A stretch of DNA of 34,323 nt, from positions 1-34,323 of the forward strand of contig JAEEII010000152.1 in the NCBI GenBank assembly GCA_016281295.1, written 5' to 3'. This document shows positions 29,910-34,323 of this stretch, piece after piece. Position numbers and translations under genes: made by a program. The notes beneath the pieces are model-generated. The model saw only the letters and a list, made by a program, of their open reading frames with translations, made no database searches and was not told where the DNA came from. Origin of the DNA: Bacteroidales bacterium. Lineage in GTDB: Bacteria > Bacteroidota > Bacteroidia > Bacteroidales > F082. Positions within the stretch are counted from its first letter, which is position 1. The number at the start of each line of letters is the position of its first letter.

Positions 29910-30478
29910 GCTTGTATTCTGGATCATTCAACCCCATCCATCACGGTCATGTGATGTTGGCCAACTATCTCGTGGAGTTCTCCGACCTTGACGAGTTGTG
30001 GTTTGTGGTGTCGCCTCAAAATCCCTTAAAGAAAAAAGAGGACTTGATGGATGACGGTGACCGTTTGGAGATGGTGAGACTCGCCATTGGCGATGATCCC
30101 AGAATGAAAGCCTCGGATATCGAGTTCGGACTCCCGAAGCCCTCTTATACCATTAACACGCTAAGGGCGTTATCAGCACAGCATCCAGAGGATCAATTTG
30201 TTTTCATCTGTGGCATGGACAGTTTACAAGGCCTGCCCCGATGGAGGGAATATCAAGCAATCCTGGACGGATATGAGCTGTTGGTTTTTCCGCGTAAAGG
30301 CTACGATGGAGGAGATTTGGTTCATCATCCCCACGTGAAAGTGCTTGAAACACCTGTGATTGAGGTGTCATCAACGTTTATCAGGAACTGCATGAAAGAA
30401 GGGAAAGACGTCAGACATTTCATGCCGGAGCGATCCTACCAATACCTTATTTCATCCGCAGCAGTTTCGTCATTTTAA
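29897..30478 (+). CDS. nadD: Nicotinate-nucleotide adenylyltransferase
   Basis: A 193-residue nucleotidyltransferase that converts nicotinate mononucleotide to deamido-NAD in NAD synthesis. The family motifs are GSFNPIHHGHV (nucleotide-binding HxGH) near the N-terminus, VVSPQNPLKKK, FICGMDSLQGLPRW and the C-terminal VSSTFIR (the ISSTxxR motif). Length is normal. Its start lies within the end of gmk (13-bp overlap), and its 3' end overlaps the convergent holB by 32 bp. Confidence 0.95.
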   Translation: MRRIGLYSGSFNPIHHGHVMLANYLVEFSDLDELWFVVSPQNPLKKKEDLMDDGDRLEMVRLAIGDDPRMKASDIEFGLPKPSYTINTLRALSAQHPEDQFVFICGMDSLQGLPRWREYQAILDGYELLVFPRKGYDGGDLVHHPHVKVLETPVIEVSSTFIRNCMKEGKDVRHFMPERSYQYLISSAAVSSF

Positions 30479-31580
30479 AACTGGTGTCCAAAAAAATCAG
30501 CGGAGCATAACCATTTCTCTCGATTTGTCGCGAAGCTTCTTCCAAAAGCTCAGCAATCTGAATGATATTCGACGGTTTCACAAAAGGAGCAAAACCCGCA
30601 TTGAACTTCTTCTCTTCTTCGGGAAGCATCACCAGTTGATTCAGGTTGTTATTAAACAACAAAGAATTACGGACGATGCCCAAGCCATATTCCAGCAGTT
30701 GTTTTTGTCGCTCGCGACCGATGGTTTTAATGTTGTTTGAGAAATCGATAAGCTCATTAATCGCAGCTTTAAAACAGAGGCGCATCCATTGCTGGAAAGT
30801 GCGGAAATAATATTTCTGGTCCTCGGAATCCTTGACGTTTTGGCAGGCTTTGAGCCAGTTGCCTTCTGACACCATGGCGGCATCAGAGGCCACTTGAGCA
30901 GTGCATCCAAATCGCTGAACCAAAGCCATTTGCAGGTCATTTTGTAAGATACGGGGAATCTTCACCAGCGAAGTTCTAGAGCGGATTGTGGCCAGCAGTT
31001 CCTCCTGATCCTCGGCAATCAAAATAAACACAGTCTTCTCTGGCGGCTCTTCAAGGAGTTTCAGCAACTTGTTAGCCGTATCCACACGCATCTTCTCGGC
31101 CATCCAGATGATTGCGATTTTGTATTCTCCTTCGTAGGCTTTGAAACTCAACTTCCTCAACAAGGCGGCTGCGTCACGGACTGAGATATACCCCTGTTTA
31201 TTCTCCACGTCCAAAAACTCATACCATGAAGAGGTATCCACATAACCTTCTTTTTGGAGCACATAGTCACGCCACTCTGTCATGAAAAGATCTGATTCAG
31301 GATTGCCTTTCACACTCTTGGTGGTTGTGGTCGGCACCACAAAATGCAGGTCTGGATGGGTCAGCTTGCTGATTTTCTGGCAAGAAGGACAAACCCCGCA
31401 ACTGTCGGTTGCAGTACGATGAGGACAGAGAATATACTGTGCGTAGGCCAAGGCCAACGGCAGTTTTCCGTTGCCCTCAGGGCCTAAAAAGAGTTGTGCA
31501 TGAGGCACACGGTTTTCCTGCACGCTAAGGATCAGTTTGCGTTTGACTTCTTCTTGTCCGATGACATCTTTGAATTGCAT
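30447..31580 (-). CDS. holB: DNA polymerase III subunit delta'
   Basis: A 377-residue AAA+ clamp-loader subunit. The N-terminus MQFKDVIGQEEVKRKLILSV and VPHAQLFLGPEGNGKLPLA give a modified P-loop with Lys-Leu in place of Lys-Thr, as expected for delta', which does not hydrolyse ATP. Zinc-binding cysteines at 52, 61, 64 and 67 (CPHR..CGVCPSC), sensor-region text ANKLLKLLEEPPEKTVFIL and the SRT motif (ATIRSRTSLV) follow. The start at 31580 is chosen after a TATTTTTG promoter 17 bp upstream; the longer frame begins in it. Confidence 0.92.
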   Translation of the reverse strand: MQFKDVIGQEEVKRKLILSVQENRVPHAQLFLGPEGNGKLPLALAYAQYILCPHRTATDSCGVCPSCQKISKLTHPDLHFVVPTTTTKSVKGNPESDLFMTEWRDYVLQKEGYVDTSSWYEFLDVENKQGYISVRDAAALLRKLSFKAYEGEYKIAIIWMAEKMRVDTANKLLKLLEEPPEKTVFILIAEDQEELLATIRSRTSLVKIPRILQNDLQMALVQRFGCTAQVASDAAMVSEGNWLKACQNVKDSEDQKYYFRTFQQWMRLCFKAAINELIDFSNNIKTIGRERQKQLLEYGLGIVRNSLLFNNNLNQLVMLPEEEKKFNAGFAPFVKPSNIIQIAELLEEASRQIERNGYAPLIFLDTSFKMTKLLRMK

Positions 31581-31597
31581 AATCGTGTTTTGATGAG

Positions 31598-31605
31598 CAA
31601 AAATA
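31598..31605 (-). promoter_or_regulatory. -7 element for holB
   Basis: TATTTTTG on the minus strand, 17 bp upstream of the ATG at 31580. Confidence 0.55.
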
Positions 31606-31677
31606 CAATTTTTCAAGCATTGTACCTGAAAAACGAATAAATAAGTTTGTCATCAACTGATTTGCGAATTTTTGGAT

Positions 31678-31701
31678 AAATTTCGCATAAAAGCGAAATT
31701 T
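31678..31701. promoter_or_regulatory. Inverted repeat, putative operator of the toxin-antitoxin pair
   Basis: AAATTTCGC (31678-31686) and GCGAAATTT (31693-31701) are perfect 9-bp arms around ATAAAA. It lies 14 bp upstream of the TATCTTTG element, overlapping where the -33 box would be, so a bound antitoxin would block the promoter, as usual for autoregulated pairs. Confidence 0.6.
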
Positions 31702-31715
31702 TCGGAAAAAAGTAT

Positions 31716-31723
31716 TATCTTTG
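31716..31723 (+). promoter_or_regulatory. -7 element of the toxin-antitoxin operon
   Basis: TATCTTTG, exact TAnnTTTG match, 24 bp upstream of the ATG at 31748. Confidence 0.65.
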
Positions 31724-31747
31724 CGGCATCAACAAAAACAAAGTACC

Positions 31748-32221
31748 ATGAGAACAGCAAAGATTGTATCCATCTCTTCCTCCGACCAAGTAGGACTCTA
31801 TTCGATTTGCTTCAACAACGGCGAAAGCGAGTTCCGTAAGTTTCTCAAAAAATTCAAAGACAATGCTGCTTTGAACAAGGATTATCAGTCTATCCTTTAC
31901 GCTCTTGACAGAATTATTGCTAAAGGTGCGTTCGAGAGAATGTTCCGTTACGAAGGGAAAATGAATGATAATGTTGTGGCTTTGTCTCTCGACTCCAGAA
32001 AGTTGCGGTTGTATTGCTTACGTATGTCCGACCAAATTCTGATAGTCGGCAATGGTGGCTTGAAAGAGACTCGCACCTACGATGAGGACGAAGAGTTGAG
32101 CGGCTATGTGATGGACTTGCAGAAATTTGACGAACTTCTCAAACAAGCACAAGAGGAAGGCTCCATATACATTGAGCAAAACATGATTACAGGTATTGAA
32201 GAAATGACTTTCAGGGTATGA
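31748..32221 (+). CDS. Putative RelE/HigB-like toxin
   Basis: A 157-residue protein whose role is inferred mainly from context. It is the first gene of a two-gene unit with an XRE regulator, its stop codon overlapping the regulator's ATG as ATGA, and an operator-like repeat covers the promoter: the layout of HigBA-type systems, toxin first. The middle (AFERMFRYEGKMNDNVVALSLDSRKLRLYCLRMSDQILIVGNGGLKET) looks like the curved-sheet core of RelE-fold toxins, with RKLRLYCLR and the GNGGLKET strand-loop. It is longer than typical HigB (about 100 aa), with a C-terminal helical extension at 118-157. The ATG at 31748 is used since an earlier start would lie upstream of the promoter element. No individual catalytic residue is assigned. 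Confidence 0.62.
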   Translation: MRTAKIVSISSSDQVGLYSICFNNGESEFRKFLKKFKDNAALNKDYQSILYALDRIIAKGAFERMFRYEGKMNDNVVALSLDSRKLRLYCLRMSDQILIVGNGGLKETRTYDEDEELSGYVMDLQKFDELLKQAQEEGSIYIEQNMITGIEEMTFRV

Positions 32222-32490
32222 TTGAGATTTATGACGAAATGTTGCGCGAAGAGTTGGCAAAAATACCGTCTTTGACGAGGGAAACCTATTTCCTTACAGA
32301 CGACATTGCCGAGCGTATTGACGCGATAATGAAAGCAAAAGGCATCAGCAAGAAGCAGCTTGCCGAACTCACCCACCGCCGTCCGTCTGACGTAACGCGC
32401 TGGCTTGGTGGTGGCCACAACTTCACCTGCAAGACCATTGCCATGATTCAGTTGGCGTTGGGAGAGAAGATTGTGGAGGTGGTGAAGTGA
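32218..32490 (+). CDS. XRE-family antitoxin/regulator
   Basis: A 90-residue protein with a helix-turn-helix at about 42-74 (GISKKQLAELTHRRPSDVTRWLGGGHNFTCKTI), preceded by an N-terminal arm likely to contact the toxin. Coupled to the preceding gene by ATGA. It probably neutralises the toxin and represses the operon through the inverted repeat at 31678-31701. Its last 57-62 bases are duplicated almost exactly 1043 bp downstream (33472-33533). Confidence 0.82.
   Translation: MIEIYDEMLREELAKIPSLTRETYFLTDDIAERIDAIMKAKGISKKQLAELTHRRPSDVTRWLGGGHNFTCKTIAMIQLALGEKIVEVVK
32429..32490 (+). repeat. Direct repeat, copy 1 (3' end of the XRE antitoxin gene)
   Basis: These 62 bases match 33472-33533 with three mismatches (at 32433, 32443 and 32483). 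The match stops abruptly at the antitoxin stop codon. Confidence 0.92.
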
Positions 32491-32530
32491 TTATTTTTCA
32501 TCCATTGTTGCGACAAAACTAAAAAGTGAC

Positions 32531-32538
32531 TATTTTTG
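32531..32538 (+). promoter_or_regulatory. -7 element of the DUF3791/DUF3990 cassette
   Basis: TATTTTTG, 17 bp upstream of the ATG at 32556, so the cassette has its own promoter after copy 1 of the repeat. Confidence 0.6.
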
Positions 32539-32555
32539 CGCCATTAAACACACTT

Positions 32556-32780
32556 ATGGACAGCGAGCAAAAAAGGATATCGTATTTCGTTTCGTTTTGC
32601 GTTGAGCAATACAAAAATGCCAAACATTTGACTGGTGGTCAATCATTTGAAGAACTAAACCAATATGGTGTGCTTGACTATTTGGCCGAGAACTACGAGA
32701 TTTTGCACACGCAAAGCTACCAATGGATTTTGGAGGACATTGACGAGTTTATCAACATTAGGAAACAGAAAGCATCATGA
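32556..32780 (+). CDS. DUF3791-family small protein
   Basis: A 74-residue helical protein. The pattern RISYFVSFCVEQYKNAKHLTG, FEELNQYGVLDYLAENYEILHTQ, then WILEDIDEFI matches my recollection of DUF3791. These proteins are usually encoded next to DUF3990 genes, as here. Function unknown; an antitoxin or accessory role for the DUF3990 protein is inferred from the coupling. The ATG at 32556 is preferred to an upstream GTG, which lies before the promoter element. The stop overlaps the next start (ATGA at 32777-32780). Confidence 0.78.
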   Translation: MDSEQKRISYFVSFCVEQYKNAKHLTGGQSFEELNQYGVLDYLAENYEILHTQSYQWILEDIDEFINIRKQKAS

Positions 32781-33262
32781 TACTGTATCACGGAAGCCTT
32801 GGGCGAGTCGCACAACCAGAAATCAGGGAATCTAACCGAACCTTGGACTATGGAACCGGGTTTTATGCCACCACTTCATACCAACAAGCTGAGGACTGGG
32901 TGCGTCGCAGGATGAAAGAGGCAAAAGAAAATAGAGGCTATGTGAATGAGTATAAGTTGAATACCGAAATGTTAGCAGATTTGAAGTGTCTTTATTTCGA
33001 TACTCCTACAGAAGAGTGGCTCGACTTTGTGATGAAAAACCGCACTGATCGACATTTCTCGCACGATTATGATGTTGTTTACGGGCCTGTGGCCAACGAT
33101 AGAGTTTATGCAGCTTTTGCCTTGTATGAAGGCGGCCTATTGAACAAGCAAAACCTAATCGCAGAATTGAAAACTTTCAAACTCGTTGACCAATACCTTT
33201 TCCATACTACCAAATCCTTGACGACCATTAAGTTCTTCGAAGCAAAACAGATACTATTATGA
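32777..33262 (+). CDS. DUF3990-family protein, probable ADP-ribosyltransferase fold
   Basis: A 161-residue protein. It begins MILYHGSLGRV, continues DYGTGFYATTSYQQAEDWVRR, then TEEWLDFVMKNR, DYDVVYGPVANDRVY and DQYLFHTTKSLTTIKF, the DUF3990 pattern. The order of these blocks parallels the H-Y-E class of ADP-ribosyltransferases: YHGS (His5), GFY (Tyr30) and a late polar residue (Gln139 in VDQYLFHT). I recall DUF3990 being placed in that superfamily; the triad is my own reading. Coupled by ATGA overlaps to the genes before and after, a layout typical of toxin modules. Activity, target and which neighbour is the antitoxin are unknown. Confidence 0.75.
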   Translation: MILYHGSLGRVAQPEIRESNRTLDYGTGFYATTSYQQAEDWVRRRMKEAKENRGYVNEYKLNTEMLADLKCLYFDTPTEEWLDFVMKNRTDRHFSHDYDVVYGPVANDRVYAAFALYEGGLLNKQNLIAELKTFKLVDQYLFHTTKSLTTIKFFEAKQILL

Positions 33263-33489
33263 CTGCAATAACCCAGGACAATCTTTATCTTTTGTTGCCT
33301 TCCAAAGTGAGTTGGTTGGCCGAAATGCTTTCCGAAGATACGGGCGTTGGCATTGTGGAAGCCATTCGTCGAATTTATCGGTCGGAAATGTACAAGAGAT
33401 TGGAAATAGAGGAAACCAAGCTTTGGCACGAGGGACCGGTAGCGCTTTATGAGGAAATCAACGAGGCGACAGCAAAACCATTGCCCTGA
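33259..33489 (+). CDS. Small cassette protein with a possibly overwritten 3' end
   Basis: A 76-residue protein beginning MTAITQDNLYLLLPSKVSWLAEMLSEDTG and containing VEAIRRIYRSEMYKRLEIEETKLWHEGPVALYEEI. I do not recognise a named family with certainty, but short proteins of this type accompany DUF3990 genes in my recollection, and the Leu-Trp-His plus Leu-Tyr pattern is typical of them. It overlaps the DUF3990 stop by ATGA. Its last codons (KPLP then TGA) lie inside the duplicated antitoxin tail, read in a different frame, so the natural C-terminus may be lost. Confidence 0.65.
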   Translation: MTAITQDNLYLLLPSKVSWLAEMLSEDTGVGIVEAIRRIYRSEMYKRLEIEETKLWHEGPVALYEEINEATAKPLP

Positions 33490-33533
33490 TTCAGTTGGCG
33501 TTGGGAGAGAAGATTGTGGAGGTGGCGAAGTGA
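33471..33533 (+). pseudogene. Orphan 3' end of an XRE antitoxin gene
   Basis: Read in frame, 33471-33533 encodes SKTIALIQLALGEKIVEVAK and a stop, nearly identical to the end of the antitoxin at 32490 (TIAMIQLALGEKIVEVVK). No helix-turn-helix or start codon precedes it; upstream is the small cassette gene in another frame. It is a remnant of a second antitoxin copy. Confidence 0.85.
33472..33533 (+). repeat. Direct repeat, copy 2
   Basis: Matches 32429-32490 at a fixed offset of 1043 bp with three mismatches. The two copies bracket the DUF3791/DUF3990/small-protein cassette in the same orientation. Confidence 0.92.
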
Positions 33534-33609
33534 ATGTATAAATAAGAAATACAATGTGTTATCGGATTGCAAATCCGCTGGAACTGGGCACACTGGTTGA
33601 AACACTACC

Positions 33610-34125
33610 TCATAGTTCAAACACAACGCTCCATTCCTTACACAGTTTTTCTAAAGTCCAAGAAGCGTTGGAACCGCTTGTTTCTGGCAAACGAAACACT
33701 TTGATGGATTGTCCGAGCTGATTTTGTAATTTTTCTCCAAACTCATCGTAATTTCCATAACCATTTATGGCAATCTTTGTTATAGACGGATTTTTTCTAA
33801 CAAAACCGACAATATCGTTTGGAGTTTTTGGAGTTCCTTTTAGGATACCTTTATCCGTGCTATTAGTTCGCTCAACAAACTGATAATAATCCCAAAGTAC
33901 GACATGCAAATGTTCTAATAACACCTTTTTCTCGGTATAATTTGTAGGCAATTTTTGTGTTGATAATTCTGCCAACATCTTCCACATCCGATTTCTATTA
34001 TCATTATAATACTCATTGGTACTAATAGACTTCTTCCCTGGTATTTTTCCCAAAATCAATACTCGAGGCTCATGACACATCAATGGAGGAAAACCTTCCA
34101 CAATAGTTGAATCATTCTTTTTCAT
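33610..34125 (-). CDS. Hypoxanthine-DNA glycosylase-like protein (UDG superfamily)
   Basis: A 171-residue protein of the uracil-DNA glycosylase superfamily, family 6 pattern: GFPPLMCHEPRVLILGKIPG, then NEYYNDNRNRMWKML, HLHVVLWDYYQF, TPNDIVGFVRKNPSI, and LPETSGSNASW near the end. These blocks follow the order of DNA-deoxyinosine glycosylases, which excise hypoxanthine from DNA. GKIPG replaces the more common GSMPG and LPETSGSNAS replaces LPSTSPANAS, so activity may differ. The base composition looks more AT-rich than the core genes, consistent with recent acquisition. It lies 31 bp downstream of a small acidic ORF on the same strand. Confidence 0.75.
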   Translation of the reverse strand: MKKNDSTIVEGFPPLMCHEPRVLILGKIPGKKSISTNEYYNDNRNRMWKMLAELSTQKLPTNYTEKKVLLEHLHVVLWDYYQFVERTNSTDKGILKGTPKTPNDIVGFVRKNPSITKIAINGYGNYDEFGEKLQNQLGQSIKVFRLPETSGSNASWTLEKLCKEWSVVFEL

Positions 34126-34156
34126 GTCAGTTTAATTTTAATGAAGATAAGATAGA

Positions 34157-34321
34157 TTAGTATAATTCCTCAGCCCCACCATAGTAATCGTAAACATCTT
34201 GATAATCCAAGTCTAATTGTTCTAAGATTTCCTCTGAAGACAGGCCGGTATTTATCTTGTTACCACCAGGTAAAGTTAAGACTACTCCATTGTTCTCATC
34301 ATAGCCATTTACCCTTGGCAT
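34157..34321 (-). CDS. Small acidic ORF, 54 aa, possibly 5'-incomplete
   Basis: The minus frame MPRVNGYDENNGVVLTLPGG..INTGLSSEEILEQLDLDYQDVYDYYGGAEELY ends with TAA at 34157-34159. It starts with an ATG two bases from the window edge, so a longer N-terminus outside the window cannot be excluded. The product is rich in Asp, Glu and Tyr and has no recognised domain. Same strand and 31 bp upstream of the glycosylase-like gene, so the two may be cotranscribed. The acidic character would suit a DNA mimic or partner protein, but that is speculation. Confidence 0.5.
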   Translation of the reverse strand: MPRVNGYDENNGVVLTLPGGNKINTGLSSEEILEQLDLDYQDVYDYYGGAEELY

Positions 34322-34323
34322 AA

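Follow-up and report, generated by a model that had tools for sequence, protein, structure and literature searches.

The 3' end of an XRE antitoxin gene recurs as a joint between small gene cassettes at one chromosomal site in Bacteroidales genomes. In the window, by which we mean the whole stretch of 34,323 nucleotides that was analysed, this end is present twice, and in relatives the same tail of about 75 bp (hereafter REP) recurs, mostly as an orphan. The first-pass annotation had proposed that antitoxin gene ends may be docking sites for exchangeable cassettes, and sequence comparison largely supported this idea. REP probably acts as portable homology, with cassettes exchanged by general recombination at a hotspot between holB and lysS.

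The two copies in the window are located on the + strand in direct orientation (32429-32490 and 33472-33533) and are identical at 59 of 62 positions. No further 62-bp copy was found on either strand of the window, where no other place matched at 34 or more of the 62 positions. The annotation made from the letters alone had described a 62-bp direct repeat with three mismatches at these coordinates and had read copy 1 as the 3' end of an XRE antitoxin gene; both descriptions were borne out, the latter by the Pfam HTH_26 match of the gene at 32218-32490 (+ strand). The length of 62 bases holds for these two copies, but not for the repeat in relatives, where it extends leftward to about 75-78 bp, corresponding in the window to 32413-32490 (REP copy 1, + strand, from sequence comparison). 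Copy 2, an orphan tail by the same comparison, is without the first ~16 bases of the full REP. The XRE gene is coupled by an ATGA overlap at 32218 to T1, a RelE-like toxin gene at 31748-32221 (+ strand; the ATG at 31748 is assumed as the start of an ORF whose longest form begins at 31721). The two matched the PADLOC PDC-M64 models together at the gene-model level, T1 to PDC-M64B (E = 1e-45) and XRE to PDC-M64C (E = 1e-21). The predicted structure of T1 has low confidence (pLDDT 67), and its eight best PDB matches were RelE, YafQ or other toxin-antitoxin chains. From fold and operon evidence, T1/XRE is a putative type II toxin-antitoxin pair. Near-identical T1 toxins (P0245 and P0266) come from a metagenome-assembled genome labelled Alphaproteobacteria, which was probably misbinned.

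To the left of this pair is holB, encoding DNA polymerase III delta' (30447-31616, - strand), the left anchor of the hotspot, whose best NCBIfam match, TIGR00678, lies just below the curated cut-off (E = 3e-52; 176.8 against 180.6 bits). Between holB and T1, an orphan remnant (31619-31650, + strand) resembles the 3' end of the GNAT cassette gene, as compared with the GNAT ends of genomes G001 and G016; a GNAT-like orphan tail of ~32 bp beside holB was also observed in G080 and G013, making a second kind of gene tail at the hotspot. To the right, copy 2 is followed by a block common to several genomes (33534-33609), which is the start of the UDG cassette and contains short palindromic pieces; palindromes of the GGATTGCAAATCC type occur within 33534-33620 of the window, and short pieces of the block are scattered in some genomes. 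The cassette continues with a gene for a DNA-deoxyinosine glycosylase of the UDG family (33610-34125, - strand; NCBIfam TIGR04274, above cut-off), which is paired with a small gene cut by the window end (34157-34321, - strand; cluster c7). Among the 7 loci compared, the glycosylase is 92-97% identical. No RNA family reached the gathering score in 31000-34323, and Pfam searches revealed no recombinase in ten further window ORFs (176-516 aa).

Three ORFs, DUF3791, DUF3990 and g3, are located between the two copies and are coupled by ATGA at 32777 and 33259. They are preceded by a leader of ~60 bp, which follows REP in both the GNAT and the DUF3990 cassettes and contains a promoter-like stretch (32505-32538, + strand; recognized from leader similarity and a motif found by eye), with TTG at 32508-32510, 20 nt, and then TATTTTTG at 32531-32538, an arrangement that we take to be of the Bacteroidetes promoter type. 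DUF3791 (32556-32780, + strand; Pfam PF12668, E = 1e-20; PDC-M13A) is a proposed antitoxin, DUF3990 (32777-33262, + strand; Pfam PF13151, E = 8e-49; PDC-M13B) a proposed ADP-ribosyltransferase-like toxin, and g3 (33259-33489, + strand; PDC-M13C; no significant Pfam match) a proposed second antitoxin. The PADLOC gene models PDC-M13 A, B and C matched together (E = 2e-33, 4e-62 and 2e-32, respectively). No credible solved relative of DUF3990 was found by sequence; its confidently predicted structure (pLDDT 93) was closest in the PDB to Xre-RES and ParT toxins, with weak E-values of 0.006-0.02, and the family has been placed in Pfam's ADP-ribosyltransferase clan (PMC7955679). PDC-M13 was reported 3324 times in rumen genomes (PMC13356809). 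According to PADLOC, PDC-M64 (T1/XRE) and PDC-M13 (the DUF3990 trio) are candidate defence systems.

The promoter-like stretch and the three coupled genes agree with the earlier description of this cassette as a self-contained unit, but g3 runs into copy 2. The last residues of g3 (AKPLP) and its stop codon (33487-33489) come from REP copy 2, read in another frame, and the cassette is therefore not cleanly separate from the repeat. Among 14 homologues inspected, only P0001 has a C-terminus like that of the window g3. Because g3 homologues otherwise end differently, the 3' end of the window g3 appears to have been made by the joint with REP, which looks like a one-time illegitimate join that spread afterwards.

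We found 21 DUF3990 loci in 19 of the 173 genomes of the same, mostly rumen, Bacteroidales family. The order DUF3791-DUF3990-g3 was observed at 14 of them, at 5 a weak g3 homologue precedes DUF3791, and at the remaining 2 DUF3990 has one partner only. By its gene order, the trio is a conserved predicted operon. Two genomes, G010 (locus L089) and G139 (locus L086), carry the same cassette minus DUF3990, with DUF3791 and g3 fused in frame, and the database proteins P0054 and P0120 look like similar DUF3791-g3 fusions. The fused forms suggest that both genes flanking DUF3990 may be antitoxins that outlived a lost toxin. REP was within 1.5 kb of DUF3990 only in G018 among the 21 family loci, and on this count we rejected the reading that copy 2 belongs to a conserved gene beside DUF3990. 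The comparison of related genomes that had been proposed as a check on the docking-site idea thus gave neither of the outcomes named as fatal to it, a conserved gene containing copy 2 or a tail duplication common to all relatives with unrelated boundaries; REP accompanies 1 of 21 DUF3990 loci, and its joints recur.

Scanning genome contigs with the XRE protein yielded 39 loci, many of them from samples of the rumen or another ruminant stomach, in records with the titles Bacteroidales, Bacteroidia, Bacteroidetes or Paludibacteraceae. At 14 of the 39 loci only the last part of the protein was matched (residue 57 onward). DNA comparison revealed arrays with up to four REP copies, whose starts are roughly 300-1060 bp apart, and the copies share ~93% identity over about 62-78 bp. 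Truncated XRE genes with the tail were found in G005 and G006, and two XRE genes with 54-55% protein identity bear near-identical tails. REP was present in 19 of 20 whole genomes chosen for holding such loci and in 26 of the 173 family genomes, with up to 5 candidates evaluated in each. When 393 genomes were drawn from the whole order, with up to 2 candidates evaluated in each, only G001 matched. Four of the 26 matches are weak or partial: those of G137 and G109 are at the hotspot, that of G134 is beside a GNAT gene on a contig other than that of holB, and that of G055 has surroundings without a recognisable feature. The REP matches of one genome are on one contig, except in G004, where they are on two contigs that both start in or near the array.

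The arrays are located at one chromosomal site. We identified holB in 169 of the 173 family genomes and examined the DNA upstream of it in the window and in the 59 genomes whose holB is most similar to that of the window. REP was found there in 20 of the 59 genomes and in the window, with 37 copies, all on the + strand and reading away from holB. The opposite anchor is lysS (NCBIfam lysine--tRNA ligase), which is reached by 34 of the 60 stretches: the site is empty, with a gap of <100 bp, in 10 of these, 13 have a longer gap without REP, and 11 have a gap with REP. The other 26 stretches comprise 10 with REP, including the window, and 16 without it before the stretch ends or the order changes. 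In G005 and G006, holB is elsewhere and REP is still 1-2 kb from lysS. Besides the window modules and the deoxyinosine glycosylase, the gap holds genes assigned by Pfam to GNAT, ParE, DUF2442, DUF4160, DUF5674, HepT-like and NT5C, among others; the cassette proteins GNAT, ParE-like, c19, DUF2442, DUF4160, c11, DUF5674 and HepT-like gave no PADLOC match at 1e-3. Since 13 of 34 sites hold genes without REP, the hotspot is broader than the tail system and REP is not required for it. Of 56 genomes, those with and without REP pooled, 20 have a contig end within 3 kb of holB on the array side and 4 have one on the opposite side (discordant 19:3, p = 0.0009). Such an excess is expected from site variation among co-resident strains or species, but any repeat could cause it too. 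In G010, an ORF to the right of the array resembles a transposase.

Within the hotspot, the cassettes punctuated by REP form a mosaic that includes the RelE-like toxin/XRE pair, DUF3791-DUF3990-g3, GNAT and others. We grouped the flanks of 32 of the 39 REP copies; the left flanks fall into 11 groups and the right flanks into 12, and 23 combinations of the two occur. Seven copies were dropped, one at a contig end (G004@1839), three with a truncated or divergent 5' part (G004@488, G137@186 and G001@1515), and three as g3-type (window@1840, G018@2560 and G010@1213). The window-type XRE tail is followed by the DUF3990 cassette in the window, by the GNAT cassette in G001, and by other DNA in G002. 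Conversely, tails without an adjoining full XRE gene lie by the DUF3990 cassette in G018 and by the version lacking the toxin in G010 and G139. All these support the part of the docking-site idea by which the same tail bounds different cassettes across species at one chromosomal site. The idea was modified by the observations that most tails are orphans away from a full antitoxin gene and that the cassettes include non-toxins. The exact excision once predicted, which would leave the same intact antitoxin gene, was not seen among the genomes compared. The nearest cases are G136, in which a different XRE gene and tail are followed by the UDG block with the cassette absent, and G005, in which a 5'-truncated window-type XRE gene and tail are followed by the UDG block. 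General recombination is a better explanation than a dedicated system of precise excision.

Comparisons between hosts indicated that several modules are more alike than the host genes around them. The DUF3990 cassettes of the window and G018 are 96.3% identical over 970 bp and have different neighbours on both sides, and the first 500 nt of holB are 69.4% identical. Fourfold-degenerate sites are identical at 91 of 106 positions in the three cassette genes versus 18 of 49 in part of holB; as a scale, lysS of G015, which is close to the window by holB, is 88.8% identical to that of G018. Such an excess over host genes was true for the DUF3990, XRE and UDG cassettes and mixed for GNAT, where most pairs are more alike than holB, but G001-G002 (86.5 versus 87.2%), G002-G008 (87.6 versus 88.2%) and G002-G016 (86.2 versus 86.4%) are not above holB, and G015-G011 is level with it (90.3 versus 89.8%).

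Several observations are suggestive of crossing over inside REP, and two pairs of loci that appear to have swapped their right sides weigh most. G009 and G115 share 549 bp to the left (99.5% identity) and REP up to base 68, and are then entirely different. G002 and G003 share 550 bp to the left (98%), show scattered differences from REP base 24 and near-complete difference from base 66, and bear different cassettes after this shared left side. In addition, REP variants track the left flank near the left end and the right flank near the right end (contrast slope p = 0.012); among five linkage windows, one left window was significant (p = 0.022) and none of the right windows was. An earlier flank-linkage run on 35 copies was set aside because three of them, which have g3-type 5' ends, inflated the result. 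In four PHI runs, no effect of distance within REP was detected (p 0.14-0.92), and four-gamete counts suggesting many recombination intervals, being unsupported by PHI, were not used as proof. Of the 37 copies, 30 have their left edge at REP bases 1-4 (~7 of these are inside XRE genes), and the others have it at bases 6, 17, 18, 28 and 41. The 27 orphan tails compared contain 35 variant alleles, 20 of which are synonymous, where a share of 21-29% would be expected (p 3e-6 to 5e-4; these values depend on the assumed transition bias and are optimistic for non-independent alleles). The orphan tails vary as if renewed from working antitoxin genes.

These results can be combined into a mechanism that we consider probable. 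The ~75-bp XRE 3' end has become a recurring joint between the small cassettes of the holB-lysS array, several of which may be toxin-antitoxin or candidate defence modules. DNA from a neighbour would recombine through the general machinery at two points, one within a tail and the other in another tail, holB or lysS, and such crossovers would swap, add or delete the cassettes between them. Since the tail is the end of a functional antitoxin gene, the antitoxin can still work after a crossover there, and functional XRE genes could in turn renew orphan tails. Points against this explanation are the null PHI result, the lack of significance in most single linkage windows, the clustering of left edges, the GNAT pairs that are no more alike than holB, and the 13 of 34 sites filled without REP. 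Moreover, a tract of about 62-78 bp with ~93% identity falls short of what efficient homologous recombination usually needs.

Left edges clustered at bases 1-4 could also mark a site-specific boundary. The tail would then be an attachment site for a recombinase acting from elsewhere, and the cassettes would be integrase-less CIME-like elements or an integron-like array. We regard this as unlikely. The left edge is sharp and adjoins several unrelated left partners, an element that enters a gene 3' end and restores the gene would yield such direct repeats, and Phage_integrase (PF00589) genes, that is tyrosine recombinases, occur somewhere in 22 of the 23 REP genomes. However, such a gene is on the array contig in only one of the 23, G015, 53 kb from the array, and none was found beside the arrays within 53 kb as far as the contigs reach, many of the array contigs being short. 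The left edges outside bases 1-4 and the flank linkage, which suggests varied crossover places, also argue against a fixed site. REP folds no better than shuffled sequences as a hairpin or attC-like structure (four folds of two copies, z -1.29 to +0.28). It had no match in plasmid and phage collections, and one 27-mer queried against viral contigs had no exact match.

A reading that we consider still less probable is that the tails are relics of tandem toxin-antitoxin loci or of successive displacement of T1/XRE, with no continuing role in exchange. The truncated XRE genes with the tail in G005 and G006 and the orphan GNAT tails in the window, G080 and G013 would be expected from it, and sequential displacement is known for T6SS arrays (PMC5361080). 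On the other hand, the uniform tail length, the coding-like evolution of the orphans and the 23 flank combinations are unexpected of decaying leftovers, and the same cassette occurs with tails in distant hosts. The tandem-relic alternative that the first-pass annotation had offered is weakened by these data; it may explain single copies, not the recurrent mosaic. An assembly or binning artefact is highly improbable: most contig records are titled as metagenome-assembled genomes or uncultured isolates and contigs end more often on the array side of holB, but identical joints appear repeatedly across bins that come from separate hosts and studies, and contigs of 100-320 kb (G001, G002, G015 and G017) cross the array into lysS with conserved flanking order.

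The REP array resembles several known systems in part. Integrons and superintegrons contain tandem cassettes, each followed by a repeat of ~75 bp, with toxin-antitoxin genes among them, and the REP array is alike in these features. It differs from integrons in that neither an integrase beside the array nor a stable hairpin was found; in addition, REP belongs to the coding sequence of the gene from which it stems, and the cassettes seem to have promoters of their own. CIMEs and islands in gene 3' ends share with the REP array an insert that lies between direct repeats of the 3' end. At the REP arrays, no integrase or related element was seen, the edges of the repeat vary, and several cassettes are in series. 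PADLOC PDC-M64 and PDC-M13, which match T1/XRE and the trio, are gene-family models and include neither the array nor its joint. Arrays of the rAID type are similar to REP arrays in that they occur in Bacteroidales with short genes and conserved intervening sequence (PMC12247911). As defined there, a rAID array has a predicted tyrosine recombinase upstream of co-oriented short genes, which is absent at REP arrays; rAID genes are orphan immunity genes, and in the portion of that report available to us the motifs are not described as gene tails (PMC12247911). Also similar are the T6SS effector-immunity arrays of Vibrio cholerae, in which modules of toxin and immunity genes lie at one locus, orphans are kept, and mosaics spread by homologous recombination without specific sites, with displacement of Rhs modules also cited (PMC5361080). 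The orphans described there are whole immunity genes and the effectors are secreted (PMC5361080), whereas the joint of the REP array is a ~75-bp gene tail and its modules look like intracellular toxin-antitoxin pairs. We place the proposed mechanism with such module arrays exchanged by homologous recombination (PMC5361080), as judged from the accessible text, and not with integrons or rAID arrays, because their recombinase is missing beside REP arrays. No published description of this array was found by title or abstract opening, in a search that left subscription journals mostly outside.

The new element is that the 3' end of a functional gene seems to have been copied as array punctuation at one hotspot. 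A bolder interpretation, which we put forward tentatively, is that the antitoxin gene end is a selected cassette-exchange site, a homology tag that would be self-protecting because a crossover there leaves a working antitoxin, and that rumen Bacteroidales use it to exchange toxin and defence modules between species with no need of an integrase. If true, the array would amount to an integron that lacks its integrase and serves addictive genes. The results suggest, in concrete terms, how small toxin-antitoxin and candidate phage-defence modules may pass between species, with no integrase or conjugation genes in view at the locus. Portable homology supplied by the 3' end of a gene itself would explain the persistence of orphan antitoxin ends, and portable gene tails may tell where new modules can be sought.
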